IMG/VR virus record: IMGVR_UViG_3300043438_000305
Coordinates: 1 to 20,807 of that record
Length of the DNA stretch: 20,807 nt
Origin: a virus
Reading direction: 5' to 3' (one strand)
The notes below the pieces were generated by a model, which searched no databases, was not told the origin of the DNA, and worked only from the letters and a program-made list of their open reading frames with translations. How positions within the stretch are numbered: position 1 is the stretch's first letter; the number at the start of each line of letters is the position of its first letter. The position numbers and the translations under genes were made by a program. Below are positions 10,591 through 20,762 of this stretch, piece after piece.

Positions 10591-11667
10591 TTACGAGGCG
10601 TAGTCGAACTTACCAAACGCCAGAGGATTCTTCACGCAGAGTGAAGCGATGGCGTTGATGAGACGAGCAGGTCCACCACCATTGTCGGTGAGTTCCTTGA
10701 TTCCAGCGACAGAACCACCATAGCGGATTTCAATGAGTTCCATAGGAATCACATAGCCGCAGAAGTTGTTCTTGAGGAACAGGGAGGGGTGCAGACGAAT
10801 CTGTCCGAAGTCACCTTCAAAGATGTCCACGGACGAGATGTAGGACGAATCAGCACCATCACGATTGATGGTACGGATTTGAGCCTGCGACTCAGCACCA
10901 CCAGTTGAGCGGTTGGTGTAGAGCAGGTTGGTGAACTGTCTCTTGAGGTTAGGACCGACAACCGCATCGTAGGAGCGATACTGACCTGTCTGGCTGTACA
11001 TCGAGGTGAGGATGTCTTGAACAGTCAGTTCAGTAAGGGTTGAGGAGGCGGTTGTTGACTCCGCAGTAGCCGTAGCGTTACCAGCAACCGATGAGGCTGG
11101 AGTAAGGAAGGCCGTTGGGACATCGAGGTAGTTGTCGATACCGACAGGAGAACCTGTAGTTGTCTTGACTGAGCGAACCCATGAGTCAAGACCACGGCTG
11201 ACATAACCCTGCGTTGAGCCGTTGTCGGTCTTAGGCAGGTTGTATGAAGCAAAGGTTCTTTCCATGTCACGCTTAAGCATGGTCATGCCCTTGGAGATGT
11301 TGTTCGCCAGTTCATCCTTAACACCAGCGGTGACCGCAATGTCGATGGTCAGAGGTGACACACGGACTGTCTTGCGGAACTCTTGGATGTGGTTGGATAA
11401 CTCGTAGCGATACTGAGTTGAGCCGTCCTTAACAAAGTTAACTGGGTCGGTGGAGACATTGACATCCGTACCATCGACAACACCAGTCGTGTTAACGACA
11501 GCGTTGGGGAGGGAGTCAACCTGCCAGCGGAACCAAGTATTGCCAGGTTTTGCGGCTTTTGGAATCATCGATGTAAGGGGAGTATCCTTAGCATCAACGA
11601 GGGAGATGAGGTCAGCGAGGGCTTCCCGCTTACCAGAGACGATATTTCTTTCTGTGAGACTTGCCAT
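10591..11667 (-). CDS. Major capsid protein, SU10-like (HK97-fold type)
   Basis: The 358-residue product starts MASLTERNIVSGKREALADL. It contains DTPLTSMIPKAAKPGNTWFR (about residues 28-47) followed by WQVDSLPNA, and later GMTMLKRDMERTF (about residues 127-139). This layout (D-x-P-L-x-S-M-I-x-K, then W-Q-D-S-L, then a long helix with LKRDxE) resembles the SU10-type major capsid family (DUF5309). It follows the scaffold gene by 28 bases and comes before the head-tail genes, the usual place for the coat. Length is normal for the family. The coat self-assembles on the scaffold into the icosahedral shell. Its leader (CATATTATCATTATG) is A/T-rich with no Shine-Dalgarno, notable for what should be the most abundant phage protein. 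Confidence 0.85.
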   Translation of the reverse strand: MASLTERNIVSGKREALADLISLVDAKDTPLTSMIPKAAKPGNTWFRWQVDSLPNAVVNTTGVVDGTDVNVSTDPVNFVKDGSTQYRYELSNHIQEFRKTVRVSPLTIDIAVTAGVKDELANNISKGMTMLKRDMERTFASYNLPKTDNGSTQGYVSRGLDSWVRSVKTTTGSPVGIDNYLDVPTAFLTPASSVAGNATATAESTTASSTLTELTVQDILTSMYSQTGQYRSYDAVVGPNLKRQFTNLLYTNRSTGGAESQAQIRTINRDGADSSYISSVDIFEGDFGQIRLHPSLFLKNNFCGYVIPMELIEIRYGGSVAGIKELTDNGGGPARLINAIASLCVKNPLAFGKFDYAS

Positions 11668-15451: not shown

Positions 15452-17056
15452 TTAATATGAAAAACCTTTGTTATTCCCTGTGAACGAATTTGTATTGTTG
15501 TATTCTGGAGCCATAACTGCGAGATATCGTAGGCAGTCAATTGGGTCTTTGCTGGCTCCTTTTTCTCCGTCCGCACCAGTCCATTCTCGCATTGAGTATA
15601 TAAGGTTCTGGCACTCTTCAGAAATATATAGTCTTGGCTGGTTAATAGTGCTTCTAGGCTGGGATGTGTCATAAGAAAGCCAGTCATTAATGATTGCAAT
15701 GCCTTCTTCAAGCCGCAAACCTGCGGCAGGCTCAAAAAACATAGGTTTATCGCCAGAGTCAAGCAATTCTATCAAAGAAGTGCCTCCATCTCGACCAACT
15801 GCTTGAGTTGCACCTGCTCTTGGGTCAATAAAGCGTCTTTCTGGGTCTTTGCCGTCTTCAATCTCACGAATCAACTCCTTGTACTGGTCAATTCCCATTC
15901 CAGCACCATTTCTTTGTGCCGTACCAGCCTTTCCGTCTGCTTTTTCGCTAGGAAGAGCCCATTCACCCATAGAAATATCTGGAAACTCCCTAAAAATGTA
16001 CACATTTCCGTCTTTCCCAACCCTAGCCCATATCATAAACCAGTTTCTAGCACCAGCAGGGTCAACTACCATGTAGTCAGTACCATCTTTAGGCACTTGG
16101 TCGGCCTTTACGATGTTGTGGTCATCGAATCTAGGGAACTGAGAGCCGATTGTGTTTTCTGCCCAGCCGTATGCTCGTATCTTAATCTCGTTGGTATTCT
16201 TACCTTCCAGCGTTTTGGCTAATTGGTCAAATGGGTTATACGGATTAAGGTCGGAATGGAACCAGATGCAGGCTGAGTTCTTGCGGAAAGAGTGTGCTAT
16301 ATATGGCATTTTGCCTCTTTCGCACCCAGCAACATGCTGGCTACCCTGCTCAAGCAGGGATGCTTTCCGCTGTTCCTTTATCTTGCACCCAGATACATAG
16401 TCCTTAACGACCTGCGAATAGCCTTGGACTGGAGTAAATGTAACACCCATCTTGCCTCTTCTAGTGACAATACGATATCGTAGAGTTTCAACCCAATCAA
16501 GAGGCACAAGTTCATCGCACCATATGAAGTCAACCTCACCACCTTCGATGACCTTCTTGTCTTGTGCGTAATTCATAAAGAAACATTGACTCTTGTTTGG
16601 CAAGATGAATGTGTTGTCGCTAAATCCGTTCTTCTGTGAATAAGAAATGTTGGTGACCTTGGTCTTCTTAGCGGTCTTCAGTTCCGCTGGCATGTACTTC
16701 CAGATGACATTCTGTTGCATCTGTATGCTAGACTGGGAGGTCGTGTGCAGACACCAGACTCTAGCGTCTGGCTTTGATGTAAGAATTTGCATGACCTTTT
16801 TAGCCGCCCACTCAGTCTTGCCTGCACGATTGCCACCCATCACGCACAACTCATCGAAATCAGACAGCAGTTTGTCCGCATCATTCCAATGCTTTGGCTC
16901 GTAGCCGTGGCGGTATGGGTCTAGTTTCTCAGCGAGTATCTTGTCCTCTCTGTCTTGCAGGAACTTGGCTACGAACTCAGCACCATACTTTAACGCAAGA
17001 GCCTTAATCTGCTCCTGCGTTGGTTTCAGTAAGACTGGGTGGTCTGATAATATCAT
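15452..17056 (-). CDS. terL: Terminase large subunit
   Basis: The 534-residue product has an ATPase domain with Walker A GGNRAGKT (residues 74-81), Walker B VDFIWCDE (175-182) and a TFTP coupling-type segment (206-209). The C-terminal nuclease domain has the expected acids: D332 in MVVDPAGA, D411 in FIDPRAGA and D504/D507 in KDPIDCLRYL. Together these give the RNase H-like fold of phage terminases. The enzyme drives DNA into the procapsid and cuts the concatemer. Length and motif spacing are normal, and no residue is missing. Its ATG overlaps the endolysin stop (ATGA), placing lysis and packaging in one transcript. The cutting mode (headful or site-specific) cannot be told from this window. 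Confidence 0.95.
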   Translation of the reverse strand: MILSDHPVLLKPTQEQIKALALKYGAEFVAKFLQDREDKILAEKLDPYRHGYEPKHWNDADKLLSDFDELCVMGGNRAGKTEWAAKKVMQILTSKPDARVWCLHTTSQSSIQMQQNVIWKYMPAELKTAKKTKVTNISYSQKNGFSDNTFILPNKSQCFFMNYAQDKKVIEGGEVDFIWCDELVPLDWVETLRYRIVTRRGKMGVTFTPVQGYSQVVKDYVSGCKIKEQRKASLLEQGSQHVAGCERGKMPYIAHSFRKNSACIWFHSDLNPYNPFDQLAKTLEGKNTNEIKIRAYGWAENTIGSQFPRFDDHNIVKADQVPKDGTDYMVVDPAGARNWFMIWARVGKDGNVYIFREFPDISMGEWALPSEKADGKAGTAQRNGAGMGIDQYKELIREIEDGKDPERRFIDPRAGATQAVGRDGGTSLIELLDSGDKPMFFEPAAGLRLEEGIAIINDWLSYDTSQPRSTINQPRLYISEECQNLIYSMREWTGADGEKGASKDPIDCLRYLAVMAPEYNNTNSFTGNNKGFSY

Positions 17057-18012
17057 TTACCCAGTTGGGTGTTATTATTACGCTGGGACAACTGTTTTTC
17101 GACCTGCGTTTCAAGAGATGAGTTATCGAAAGGGTCAAATATAAGTTTATTGACCATCCAGTCTCGCTGTGATTTTGGAGCATCCTTCATGTAATCATTT
17201 GTTCCAGAAAGTATATCAAGCCCCATTTTGGTTTGCAATACTTTATCAACAGGATACGCATAACTAGTAGTCCAATCCTTTGCCGCTAAAGGAAGTTTTG
17301 GAGTCTTAATAAATCCACTTATTGCCTGTTGCGGTGTAACTTCAGCCTTCTTTTTTGCGGCTTCTTCAAGTTCCCTAATTGACTCGTTTTGGTTTATGAA
17401 AAAATTAAGTTGTCCTTCTGTAAGGATTTCTCCAGCATTTTTCATTGTTTCTGAGAATGGAGTAGATGGTCCAATAATCCTATACATACCTTCTGGTGTT
17501 GCACCCTTTTTTAATTTAGGGTCTCTCCATAAAATATATTCTATTCCAGCCCTTCTAGCCAAGTCTGGGTCTCTTTCCAGTACATCTGGGTCTGAGACTA
17601 AATCAACGCCAAGTTTTTTTCCAATATATTCATAGTTGTATCTGCCTGTAAGTTGAACAAATGTCCTTCCACGGAACTTCCATCCATCGCCTTCTTCCTT
17701 GTTCCCCAATTGCGGATGATTCTGATAAAATACATTGGCAAACTTTTGTTCATCCCTAAGTAGACCATCTCTCTTTATTTTTTCTATTCCCTGCTCCCTT
17801 GTTAGCCCAGCAAAGTATTGATTGTCATGTTTAACATCCCAAAGTCTTTCTGCTGTTGTATAGTAAAGGCTTTCCCTTTTTCCACCACCCTCTGATTGTG
17901 CAAGCAATGCAATATTTTTGATGTAATTGTCATCCATTCCTCGACTACGCAGTTCCTCTACAAATTTCTTGTTTAGAAATTCAAACTTTTTAATAATTTT
18001 CTTTTCAGCCAT
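17053..18012 (-). CDS. GH19-type endolysin (chitinase-like lysozyme)
   Basis: Residues about 25-200 have the glycoside hydrolase family 19 pattern used by phage lysins: NIALLAQSEGGGKRESLYYT (E41 and E47 are the likely acids), then FANVFYQNHPQLGN, then GDGWKFRGRTFVQLTGRYNY (108-127). In family 19 the first motif is usually H-E-S-G-G; here the residue before the Glu is Ser (SEGGG), a mild departure. The enzyme would cut the glycan strand of peptidoglycan. The last 120 residues form an unassigned helical, Lys/Gln-rich extension that could bind wall or virion. There is no signal peptide or signal-anchor, so export needs a holin. The gene overlaps terL by 4 bases and follows the Thr tRNA. Confidence 0.87.
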   Translation of the reverse strand: MAEKKIIKKFEFLNKKFVEELRSRGMDDNYIKNIALLAQSEGGGKRESLYYTTAERLWDVKHDNQYFAGLTREQGIEKIKRDGLLRDEQKFANVFYQNHPQLGNKEEGDGWKFRGRTFVQLTGRYNYEYIGKKLGVDLVSDPDVLERDPDLARRAGIEYILWRDPKLKKGATPEGMYRIIGPSTPFSETMKNAGEILTEGQLNFFINQNESIRELEEAAKKKAEVTPQQAISGFIKTPKLPLAAKDWTTSYAYPVDKVLQTKMGLDILSGTNDYMKDAPKSQRDWMVNKLIFDPFDNSSLETQVEKQLSQRNNNTQLGK

Positions 18013-19111: not shown

Positions 19112-19514
19112 ACCAACCATGTCTATCTTTCTTGATGGTAATCCGAAGATTGACTCTAAAGCCTCGATTGTCTTTGCAGATTGCCGTGAAGACTTGCCCT
19201 TCCTTGTTCTTGACTTGGAGGAGGCGGGTATTGGGGAAGTTGCATCTGGTGACGGAGACTTCTTGTTCGTTGGTTTCTTCTTCTTTTTCATTGATTTCTT
19301 TGGTGATTTGATTGCTTTCAAGATTGAGTTGGTCGGTGAGCCACGAAATACCAGCAGGAGTCCAGAGCCACTTGCGGAGTTTCTCTGGCTTGCCACTCAA
19401 CTCCTTGAATGTCAAAAGGGGATTATCCCCGCACTTAGTTCTCCAAGTGCGGAGTTCATCACGGCTCAGACCGAGCCGCTCGCTAACATCTTTATCTGAT
19501 ACATTGTCGCTCAT
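19077..19514 (-). CDS. Unknown protein with possible N-terminal helix-turn-helix (145 aa)
   Basis: The front (MSDNVSDKDVSERLGLSRDE then LRTWRTKCGD) looks like a short helix-turn-helix, with VSERLGLSRDELRTW as the two helices. A region rich in Trp and Leu follows (KWLWTPAGISWLTDQLNL, about residues 48-65), then an acidic linker, then a strand-rich end with TRCNFPNTRLLQVKNKEGQV and GWYVKRNPVYKGK. This distinct composition supports this frame over the overlapping one. It starts 19 bases after the Ile tRNA with the A/T leader TTTTATATTATT, so it is probably transcribed with the tRNA array. The function is not recognised; DNA binding is suggested but unproven. Confidence 0.68.
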   Translation of the reverse strand: MSDNVSDKDVSERLGLSRDELRTWRTKCGDNPLLTFKELSGKPEKLRKWLWTPAGISWLTDQLNLESNQITKEINEKEEETNEQEVSVTRCNFPNTRLLQVKNKEGQVFTAICKDNRGFRVNLRITIKKDRHGWYVKRNPVYKGK

Positions 19515-19533
19515 AATAATATAAAATTGAAAG

Positions 19534-19606
19534 TAGGGGTGGGGAGAATCGAACTCCCGACTTAGCCCTTATAAAGAGCCCACTCTAACCGCTGAGTTAC
19601 ACCCCC
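19534..19606 (-). tRNA. tRNA-Ile (UAU)
   Basis: Acceptor GGGGGTG/CACCCCT (first pair G-U), D arm ACTC/GAGT, anticodon stem GGCTC/GGGCT with loop TTTATAA, and T arm GGGAG-TTCGATT-CTCCC. The anticodon is UAU, which reads AUA. Most bacteria read AUA with a lysidine-modified CAU tRNA, so a UAU tRNA is uncommon. The discriminator is A and no CCA is encoded. It is the last gene of the array. Confidence 0.93.
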
Positions 19607-19612
19607 CGAAAA

Positions 19613-19685
19613 TACGGCAAGCGGGGGTCGAACCCGCAACATCCAGTTTGGAAAACTGACACTCTGCCAATTGAGTTACTGCCGT
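19613..19685 (-). tRNA. tRNA-Gly (UCC)
   Basis: Acceptor ACGGCAG/TTGCCGT, D arm ACTC/GAGT, anticodon stem TCAGT/ACTGG with loop TTTCCAA, and T arm GCGGG-TTCGACC-CCCGC. The anticodon UCC reads GGA and other GGN codons. The 3' half resembles known bacterial tRNA-Gly (UCC). The discriminator is A; no CCA is encoded. The A1-U72 start is unusual for glycine. Confidence 0.9.
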
Positions 19686-19690
19686 GAAAG

Positions 19691-19775
19691 TAGAGGGTAT
19701 CCGATTTGAACGGATGGGACTTTGACATCCAGCAGTTTTCAAGACTGCCGCAATAGACCACTCTGCCAACCCTCT
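19691..19775 (-). tRNA. tRNA-Ser (UGA)
   Basis: Acceptor AGAGGGT/ACCCTCT, anticodon stem GCAGT/ACTGC with loop CTTGAAA (anticodon UGA, codon UCA), a long variable arm, and T arm ATCCG-TTCAAAT-CGGAT. The long variable arm and the CUUGAAA loop are typical of serine. The discriminator is A, whereas bacterial serine tRNAs usually have G. No CCA is encoded. Confidence 0.93.
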
Positions 19776-19780
19776 GAAAG

Positions 19781-19860
19781 TGCTGAAGGCGGGACTTGAA
19801 CCCGCAAGCCATTGGCGATTGATTTTAAGTCAATAGTGTTTACCATTTCACCACTTCAGC
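19781..19860 (-). tRNA. tRNA-Leu (UAA)
   Basis: Acceptor GCTGAAG/CTTCAGC, D arm GTG/CAC, anticodon stem ATTGA/TCAAT with loop CTTAAAA (anticodon UAA, codon UUA), a long variable arm (CGCCAATGGCTT), and T arm GCGGG-TTCAAGT-CCCGC. The discriminator is A, as expected for leucine. No CCA is encoded. Confidence 0.93.
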
Positions 19861-19865
19861 AAAAC

Positions 19866-19938
19866 TGGAACCGCTGGGACTTGAACCCAGAACCAACGGC
19901 TTAAAAGGCCGCTACTCTGACCATTGAGTTACGATTCC
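19866..19938 (-). tRNA. tRNA-Lys (UUU)
   Basis: Acceptor GGAATCG/CGGTTCC, D arm ACTC/GAGT, anticodon stem GCGGC/GCCGT with loop CTTTTAA (anticodon UUU, codons AAA/AAG), and T arm CTGGG-TTCAAGT-CCCAG. The discriminator is A; no CCA is encoded. A 13-bp hairpin lies between this gene and tRNA-Ala. Confidence 0.93.
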
Positions 19939-19940
19939 GT

Positions 19941-19986
19941 CAAGGTTTACAAAGAGATTAGATTGACATGCCATTTGTAAACTTTG
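19941..19986 (-). repeat. 13-bp inverted repeat between tRNA-Ala and tRNA-Lys
   Basis: Arms 19941-19953 and 19974-19986 pair over 13 positions with one G-U (core GTTTACAAA/TTTGTAAAC), around a 20-base loop. It fills almost the whole 54-base spacer between two tRNAs, whereas the other spacers in the array are 1 to 6 bases. There is no T-run after it on the minus strand, so a standard terminator is unlikely. It may aid processing or mark a lost gene. Confidence 0.7.
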
Positions 19987-19992
19987 ACCAAA

Positions 19993-20066
19993 TGGTGGAG
20001 GCGGGGAGAATCGAACTCCCATTGCCCGAATGCAAATCGGGTTTCCTACCATTGAAAGAAGCCCCC
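19993..20066 (-). tRNA. tRNA-Ala (UGC)
   Basis: Acceptor GGGGGCT/CGCCTCC, a reduced D arm TTTC/GAAA, anticodon stem CCCGA/TCGGG with loop TTTGCAT (anticodon UGC, codon GCA), and T arm GGGAG-TTCGATT-CTCCC. The G3-U70 pair, the main identity mark for alanine, is present, as is discriminator A. An encoded CCA follows. The seventh acceptor pair is a U-C mismatch and the body is only 71 bases. A Cys reading (GCA) would break the anticodon stem. Confidence 0.88.
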
Positions 20067-20067
20067 A

Positions 20068-20138
20068 TAGACCCACAAGGAGTCGAACCTTGACATAGAG
20101 AACCAAAATCTCTAGTGCTACCATTACACCATAGGTCT
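20068..20138 (-). tRNA. tRNA-Gln (UUG)
   Basis: Acceptor AGACCTA/TGGGTCT, D arm GTGT/GCAC, anticodon stem AGAGA/TCTCT with loop TTTTGGT (anticodon UUG, codon CAA), and T arm CAAGG-TTCGACT-CCTTG. The discriminator is A; no CCA is encoded. Only one base separates it from tRNA-Ala, so 3' trimming and CCA addition must be precise. Confidence 0.92.
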
Positions 20139-20142
20139 AAAA

Positions 20143-20215
20143 TCACCGAGACAGGACTTGAACCTGCAATCCCCTGCTCCCAAAGCAGGTGCGTTAGCCA
20201 TTACGCTACTCGATG
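20143..20215 (-). tRNA. tRNA-Pro (UGG)
   Basis: Acceptor CATCGAG/CTCGGTG with C1-G72 as in bacterial proline tRNAs, D arm GCGT/ACGC, anticodon stem CCTGC/GCAGG with loop TTTGGGA (anticodon UGG, codon CCA), and T arm GCAGG-TTCAAGT-CCTGT. The discriminator is A; no CCA is encoded. It is the first tRNA of the array, 10 bases after the structured leader RNA. Confidence 0.93.
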
Positions 20216-20225
20216 CAGTTGATGA

Positions 20226-20337
20226 CTGGCGGGGAGTTTCGGACCTCCTCTAGTATTTGCCAGAATCTTTCGACTCACCCATGTTTACCTAATTTCTTAG
20301 GTGATTCGCAAATACACTTTCCCTGTGGGAACGCCAG
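20226..20337 (-). ncRNA. Cloverleaf-like structured RNA heading the tRNA operon (unknown family)
   Basis: Hand folding of the minus strand gives a closing stem CTGGCG (20337-20332) with CGCCAG (20231-20226). Inside it are hairpin TTCCC-ACA-GGGAA (20331-20319), a central arm pairing 20315-20303 with 20267-20253 over 13 bp around a two-base bulge, and hairpin GGAG-GTCCGAAA-CTCC (20248-20233). The central arm ends in a sub-hairpin ACCTAA-GAAA-TTAGGT with a GNRA tetraloop (20302-20287). The upper arm can instead pair TCACC (20304-20300) with GGTGA (20279-20275), so two folds compete. The element starts about 20 bases after the likely transcription start. No open frame fits it. It does not match tRNA, tmRNA, RNase P, a riboswitch or a ribozyme that I know. 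It may be a leader, a processing element or a stand-alone RNA. Confidence 0.6.
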
Positions 20338-20361
20338 CAAATTTCAAAGAACCCGCATATT

Positions 20362-20392
20362 CAAACATAGTTTTACTCACTTGTCAACCAAA
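20362..20392 (-). promoter_or_regulatory. Bacteroidota-type promoter for the tRNA operon
   Basis: The minus strand reads TTTG (20392-20389), 19 bases, then TATGTTTG (20369-20362), an exact match to the Bacteroidota consensus TTTG-N19-TAnnTTTG. A TTGACA box overlaps the spacer, so a sigma70-like reading with TTGAAT at 17 bases is also possible. Transcription should begin near 20355, upstream of the structured RNA and the eight tRNAs. Confidence 0.7.
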
Positions 20393-20762
20393 TGTAAAAA
20401 CTTCTTCCATTGACCCCATATGCTATAAAACCAGAAAATTCTTTATTCCCCGCTTGACTTCTTTTCTGACAATCCCCTTAATAATCCCCTTCCTCACCCT
20501 CGCTGATGCTCGGGCGGTTTTTACCTTTTGCAAAAAAAAGTGTAAGGCATGGAACCTAACATATCAACCTTCTGGCGGTTAAACGCTACCCCCTCCCCCC
20601 CTTAAGGGTGCAAACCCTTTTCTTAGGGGATGCATGAGGGGTTAAAGGGGTTAAACCCTCCAGCCTATTCACTCCCTTGGCTGGAGGGTGTTCCCCTGCG
20701 GGCGTTACCCGCTTGGTTGATGAGGTTGGTGGGTGGCACATGGTGGGCGGGGAGGCTAGGGG
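20393..20762. other. Gene-free repeat-rich region
   Basis: No convincing gene lies here on either strand. The right half is GC-rich with runs of C or G. I see a tandem pair of aatcccctt spaced by 12 (20471-20491), a tandem ggggttaaa pair (20638-20655), a nested hairpin around aaggg-tgcaaa-cccttt near 20601-20632, an 11-bp hairpin (20655-20689) and a small hairpin GCGGG-CGTTA-CCCGC (20698-20712). A weak sigma70-like pair, TTGATA-N17-TACACT, lies on the minus strand near 20541-20569. The region separates two transcription units. It could also be an origin or packaging region, but nothing proves this. Confidence 0.55.
20655..20689 (-). terminator. 11-bp GC-rich hairpin after the right-edge gene
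   Basis: The arms accctccagcc (20655-20665) and ggctggagggt (20679-20689) are perfect complements around a 13-base loop. It lies about 75 bases after the stop of the right-edge gene. On the minus strand it is followed by TTAACCCCTTT rather than a long T-run, so intrinsic termination would be weak. It may be a bidirectional barrier or another structural signal. Confidence 0.42.

Follow-up and report, generated by a model that had tools for sequence, protein, structure and literature searches.

How phages keep long untranslated tRNA arrays from Rho is a question that is rarely asked. In bacteria, boxA elements lie near the 5' end of long untranslated stable-RNA transcripts, both in rRNA operons, where they act through NusB-S10/SuhB antitermination, and ahead of CRISPR arrays. 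In E. coli, boxA blocks Rho-dependent termination at long noncoding or untranslated leaders (PMC4807359), and in Legionella it raises the long untranslated precursor-crRNA about 10-fold (PMC7862264). Phage tRNA islands, for their part, are the setting of T4 RNA C and RNA D (species 1 and 2; 139 and 119 nt) and of GOLLD and ROOL (400 to more than 800 nt). T4 RNA C, encoded by rnaC, folds into a T-arm-like hairpin and long middle arms and has no anticodon arm. The HK022 put RNA is also a structured RNA that starts a phage transcript, and its antitermination is not known to need boxA or Nus factors.

Here we describe a phage locus at which a host-type boxA heads a tRNA operon and is followed by a structured RNA that is real, conserved and unclassified, a new covariation-supported family in phage tRNA islands that is, like RNA C, RNA D, GOLLD and ROOL, without assigned function. 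The boxA sequence, its position near the 5' end and the long untranslated stable-RNA transcript are those of the rRNA and CRISPR leaders, and the same motif stands upstream of 16S in the probable host phylum. Unlike those leaders, it heads a phage tRNA array and lies at about +2 rather than tens of bases in, and in contrast to the rRNA leader no boxB or boxC was recognised in the phage leader, the new structured RNA coming next. This RNA resembles T4 RNA C and D in size and in belonging to a phage tRNA cluster, a comparison of gene position and fold alone; no sequence homology was detected, the T4 RNAs close their cluster at its 3' end whereas the present element opens its own at the 5' end, and RNA C, unlike the present RNA, keeps a canonical GGTTCGAATCC T arm. 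Like GOLLD and ROOL it is a structured phage RNA beside tRNAs, and several GOLLD loci are also headed by a promoter and boxA, but it measures only 115 nt, folds differently and has no Rfam match.

Genomic setting

The window, that is, the whole 20.8-kb stretch of DNA analysed, is an IMG/VR fragment of a tailed phage. The minus strand carries all large genes, beginning with a 145-aa reading frame at 19514 and ending at 1322, and an array of eight tRNAs (20215-19533, minus strand) has the structured RNA directly upstream (Table 1). About 840 nt without a sizeable gene separate the predicted transcript start from the reading frame at 19514, so that the boxA heads a long untranslated RNA containing the eight tRNAs, and no convincing intrinsic terminator was found between the array and the co-directional late genes. 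At most gene starts on the minus strand of the window an obvious Shine-Dalgarno sequence is absent.

The phage is of a lake type, and its host is probably in the Verrucomicrobiota. With an alignment as query, its terminase relatives in the genome collection were found mostly in Verrucomicrobiota MAGs (Pedosphaera, Opitutae, Verrucomicrobiales), whose contigs can be stray viral contigs; a genome scan with the terminase alone as query gave no match.

Table 1. Features of the window and the evidence for them
Feature	Position	Strand	Evidence
-35-like hexamer TTGACA	20382..20387	minus	sequence
-10-like hexamer TTGAAT, 17-nt spacer	20359..20364	minus	sequence alignment; weak here, 4/6
boxA-like element GTTCTTTGAAA, expected transcript 5' end	20342..20352	minus	consensus match; Verrucomicrobiota 16S leaders; relatives without the structured RNA
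Structured RNA, four-way junction, 115 nt including unpaired 3' C	20224..20338	minus	folding and homologues
P1 5' strand GCTGGCG, acceptor-like, 7 bp	20332..20338	minus	invariant in six homologues
P2 hairpin TTCCC-ACA-GGGAA	20319..20331	minus	compensatory change in 3/5 pairs
P3 long middle arm: P3a GTATTTGC/GCAAATAC, P3b GAATC/GATTC, variable tip	20253..20315	minus	
P4 hairpin GGAG-GTCCGAAA-CTCC, T-arm position	20233..20248	minus	compensatory change in 2/5 pairs
P1 3' strand CGCCAGT, then invariant C20224	20225..20231	minus	invariant in six homologues
tRNA-Pro(TGG), first tRNA of the array	20143..20215	minus	
tRNA-Gln, Ala, Lys, Leu, Ser, Gly, Ile (rest of the array)	19533..20139	minus	
tRNA-Thr, ninth tRNA, apart from the array	18097-18023		
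Glycosyl-hydrolase-19 lysin	17053-18012	minus	
Terminase	15452-17056	minus	
Major head protein	10591-11667	minus	

Structure and conservation of the RNA

The first-pass annotation of this DNA had proposed that the phage tRNA operon is headed by a cloverleaf-like RNA made of a closing stem, a 5-bp hairpin, a GAAA-capped middle arm and a hairpin in the T position. Our analysis confirmed this fold and its place before the tRNA-Pro of an eight-tRNA array. The proposed bounds were 20226-20337; 20338-20224 describe the element better, the closing stem CUGGCG/CGCCAG having 7 rather than 6 bp when the outer G.U is counted; P4 reads GGAG-GUCCGAAA-CUCC as RNA. An energy-model fold, one of the checks suggested at that stage, gave -38.0 kcal/mol for the original interval, which is better than chance, as shuffled sequences average -25.5 (z -3.6; 1 of 200 shuffles is as good). 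Taken singly, the homologues fold with less remarkable energies (z -0.7 to -2.8), and the case for the structure therefore rests on comparison rather than on energy. The 13-bp form of the middle arm (8 bp of P3a and 5 bp of GAATC/GATTC) lies 2.4 kcal/mol above the computed optimum in the window, and the homologues support it despite this lower computed stability. The idea that the upper arm behaves as a switch found no such support: the alternative pairings are 2.4-3.0 kcal/mol worse than the optimum, each has a pairing probability below 4%, and the homologues keep a single form of P3, which speaks against a riboswitch or other bistable element.

A terminase search provided 80 relatives, which were examined for copies of the structured RNA. 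Divergent copies were present in five and identical copies in two, giving six distinct sequences from related uncultivated phages, the only ones known, and in all six P1 encloses P2, P3 and P4. Shuffling the interior while P1 was kept constant produced P2 and P4 together in only 8 of 1800 cases. In an alignment (A4) assembled by hand from the helix strands, 98% of cells are paired and 11 of 25 pairs (17 cells) show compensatory change, a count reached by none of 500 shuffles, while sliding the partners by 1-3 columns left at most 2 such pairs; the search for compensating changes in homologous leaders, also suggested earlier, was thus positive. P3, the tip of which varies in length and sequence, has compensatory change in 6 of the 8 pairs counted, but since its strands were picked by eye these counts lean towards structure, whereas P2 and P4 leave little choice. 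P1 is invariant and is therefore itself without covariation support. The covariance model built from the six copies (R1) recovers them at 63-93 bits in 828 kb scanned, as it must by construction, and found nothing else above 17 bits. In L072 and L073 it also gives weak matches (14-16 bits) to two tRNAs per locus, placing P1 and P4 on the acceptor and T arms.

The structured RNA occurs only where the array is present, and both are absent within 4.5 kb in L012, a relative of 81% identity. Its distance to the first tRNA varies from 8 to 120 nt. Three relatives (L008:7062-7177, L011:1038-1120, L078:1481-1558) share another conserved element, TATAATGGGGMGTAATTAACCCAAGGCCAA...GGGCCGTCC, immediately ahead of the first tRNA, twice behind the structured RNA and once alone; it looks like another small structured RNA and had no Rfam match. 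Additional hits of a P1...P1' pattern scan (L082, L084, L086, L087) have neither tRNAs nor boxA and look like chance, as does the sole covariance-model match in 195 Verrucomicrobiota genomes (L133), which contains mismatched pairs and lacks both boxA and tRNA. A nucleotide search of annotated phages returned tRNA-Pro matches or chance matches only.

No Rfam family, GOLLD and ROOL included, matched the structured RNA at the gathering threshold or at E values up to 10, which agrees with the earlier failure to place it in a known family. The 7-bp closing stem with one unpaired 3' base, the D- and T-position hairpins and the slot behind boxA are shared with tRNAs and with the tRNA-like domain of tmRNA, but there is no anticodon loop, tag reading frame or encoded CCA. 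Neither ARAGORN nor Rfam calls a tRNA at 20224-20338 even at E 10, the tRNA pattern, which includes a D-loop GG, is not matched as a whole, and the T-loop motif UUCRANY is only partly kept, with UCCGAA, CCCGAA, CUGAAAC and CUGAUA among the copies. G1.U72 and C73 in P1 and the 3-nt loop of the D-arm analogue are also atypical of tRNAs. That the element has no CCA end, as originally reported, is true but uninformative, since only tRNA-Ala encodes CCA among the tRNAs of this array. A tmRNA was rejected by the ARAGORN tmRNA search and by Rfam RF00023, and for a hammerhead or other self-cleaving ribozyme, inspection by eye of the GUC and CGAAA strings revealed no matching core and Rfam was again negative.

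Promoter and boxA at the head of the transcript

Upstream of P1, all six copies carry a promoter-like TTGAC-N18-TANNNT, with a weaker -10 in the window, followed by GTTCTTTG(A)AATTT; GTTCTTTG itself is present in all six. TTGAC[A/T] is likewise kept throughout at an equal distance from boxA, and the -10 hexamers of the homologues are TAGTAT, TAAAGT, TACTAT and TATGAC; a generic promoter scan did not list the -10-like hexamer of the window. The predicted transcript start, GUUCUUUGAAA, matches the boxA of ribosomal operons. The 11-nt element matches the gamma-proteobacterial consensus GYTCTTTAANA at 10 of 11 positions (PMC5725501) and closely resembles the boxA of the Legionella CRISPR array, GTTCTTTAAAA (PMC7862264).

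The probable host phylum uses the same motif near its rRNA genes. YTCTTTGA was found within 400 nt upstream of 16S in 11 of 30 Verrucomicrobiota leaders (mean 0.8 and maximum 5 in 200 shuffles), the exact string being absent from about two thirds of those sampled, and GTTCTTTGACAATTG occurs in several 16S-23S spacers, with GGTGTTCTTTGAAAAG at two of the rrn loci (L105 and L106). The phage 5' end thus resembles the rrn boxA of the probable host phylum, and the identification as boxA, judged from sequence, is well supported. The earlier description was correct about the structure but missed the 14 nt in front of it, which include boxA and are its most interpretable part. Farther upstream, all relatives share a strongly conserved block at window positions 20400-20480 (minus strand), TTAYTAAGGGGATTGTCAG...AGTCAAGCGGG, possibly an activator site or a second promoter.

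More distant relatives show what else can follow boxA. In L059/L060, L072/L073 and L080, the promoter and GGTGTTCTTTGA stand directly before tRNA-Thr with no structured RNA, and in L052 the same promoter and GTTCTTTGG, one change from GGTGTTCTTTGA, do so too. In these relatives the first paired base comes 13 nt after boxA, and in the structured-RNA copies P1 comes 13-14 nt after it; the structured RNA therefore occupies the slot of the first tRNA; its position at the operon head had been noticed before, but not this equivalence. Directly before tRNA-Ile inside the array, L072 (8646) and L073 (1376) carry a second boxA-like sequence, GTTCTTTACAT, which may mean that long arrays contain boxA more than once.

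Occurrence in other viral contigs

The motif TTGAC-N18-TANNNT-N4-9-GTTCTTTGA gave at least 120 matches in viral contigs, against 46 in all for a permuted motif. Among the matches listed, a tRNA or tmRNA starts within 45 nt at 10 of 97 distinct boxA places, whereas the local tRNA density predicts 0.3 (P 8e-13); behind the permuted motif there was none in 30, counted by ARAGORN calls alone, unlike the boxA places, which were also scanned with Rfam. In six isolate phages that carry tRNA arrays (three Kehishuvirus-type crAss-like phages, Phass-1, Bacillus P59 and Enterococcus CCS1), the stretch from the promoter to the first tRNA contains no boxA-like motif, so boxA before tRNA arrays is recurrent but not universal. 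In the papers searched, which lay outside subscription journals, none describes boxA at phage tRNA or tmRNA operons, and mentions of 'BoxA' in two phage papers refer to BOXA1R PCR primers.

Discussion

We propose that a sigma70-type promoter gives rise to a transcript opening with the host-type boxA, that host NusB-S10 would bind this boxA RNA and that RNA polymerase would become Rho-resistant, as on rRNA operons, so that it could complete the untranslated leader and the array and may continue into the late genes. Protection of the roughly 840-nt untranslated stretch is the simplest reading of the phage boxA. Behind it, the RNA folds with P1 as an acceptor-like stem, P2 in the D position, P3 replacing the anticodon arm and P4 in the T position. 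Its acceptor-like P1, its unpaired 3' base and its D- and T-position arms suggest that tRNA-processing enzymes release it, with RNase P expected to cut at G20338 and 3' trimming to proceed to about C20224; the product, which is probably a stable RNA of tRNA-like form similar to T4 RNA C, could then persist and act in trans. We give this explanation as a whole about an even chance of being correct. Its target in trans might be the host translation or tRNA machinery, where the RNA could serve, for example, as a decoy for enzymes that process or cleave tRNAs. The broader proposal, a new family of trans-acting phage tRNA-like RNAs together with a hitherto unreported borrowing of host rRNA antitermination by diverse phages for tRNA, tmRNA and GOLLD operons, is more tentative, and we hold it at somewhat below even.

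The main rival is that the structure works in cis as part of a nut- or put-like antitermination complex, in which Nus factors, polymerase or a phage protein would bind to boxA together with P1 and P2, and the structure would not be released as a small RNA. The unbroken invariant block from boxA into P1 (GUUCUUUG(A)AAUUUGCUGGCGUU), next to a P3 that varies freely, would suit such a complex, as would the fact that the structure is always transcribed first, 13-14 nt behind boxA. However, both in relatives within the phage group and in unrelated phages, a tRNA or tmRNA directly follows boxA with no such structure, which indicates that boxA does not need it, and the loops of P2 and P4 vary, unlike boxB. 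We therefore regard a role in cis as unlikely. The structured RNA is a module separate from boxA, dispensed with by relatives and found only with the array. An independent module with a variable distance to the first tRNA, sitting between it and boxA, could also be an insulator or processing leader that shields the 5' end, prevents misfolding of the first tRNA or spaces boxA from the array. Such a role would have no need of an invariant P1 sequence or of covarying P2, P3 and P4, and relatives manage without it, which makes it quite improbable.

Doubt may also be raised about boxA itself, since Nus binding to GUUCUUUG is only predicted and this sequence always begins about 5-7 nt after the -10 hexamer, as a promoter or initially-transcribed DNA element common to tRNA operon heads for reasons of initiation would do. 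Host rrn leaders, however, carry the motif about 100-200 nt upstream of 16S and in the 16S-23S spacer, away from promoters, and GUUCUUUG fits the experimental boxA consensus, so that an initiation element seems very unlikely. Antitermination through boxA, the reading that we prefer, is an ordinary-looking yet unreported use of a host signal by phages; a host-type boxA heading tRNA operons is a concrete and testable answer to the problem of Rho and seems recurrent in several unrelated viral contigs.

Two further observations concern other phage RNAs. Phage tmRNA genes lie 7-18 nt downstream of a promoter and rrn-type boxA in L137, L141 and L205 and in seven loci called by Rfam directly behind boxA among the matches listed (L166, L182, L199, L206, L226, L242, L245), on contigs apparently unrelated to one another. 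Rfam also places GOLLD behind boxA in L140, L150, L174 and L219, among the matches listed, where promoter and boxA precede the conserved Rfam core by about 410-440 nt and could mark the 5' end of GOLLD.
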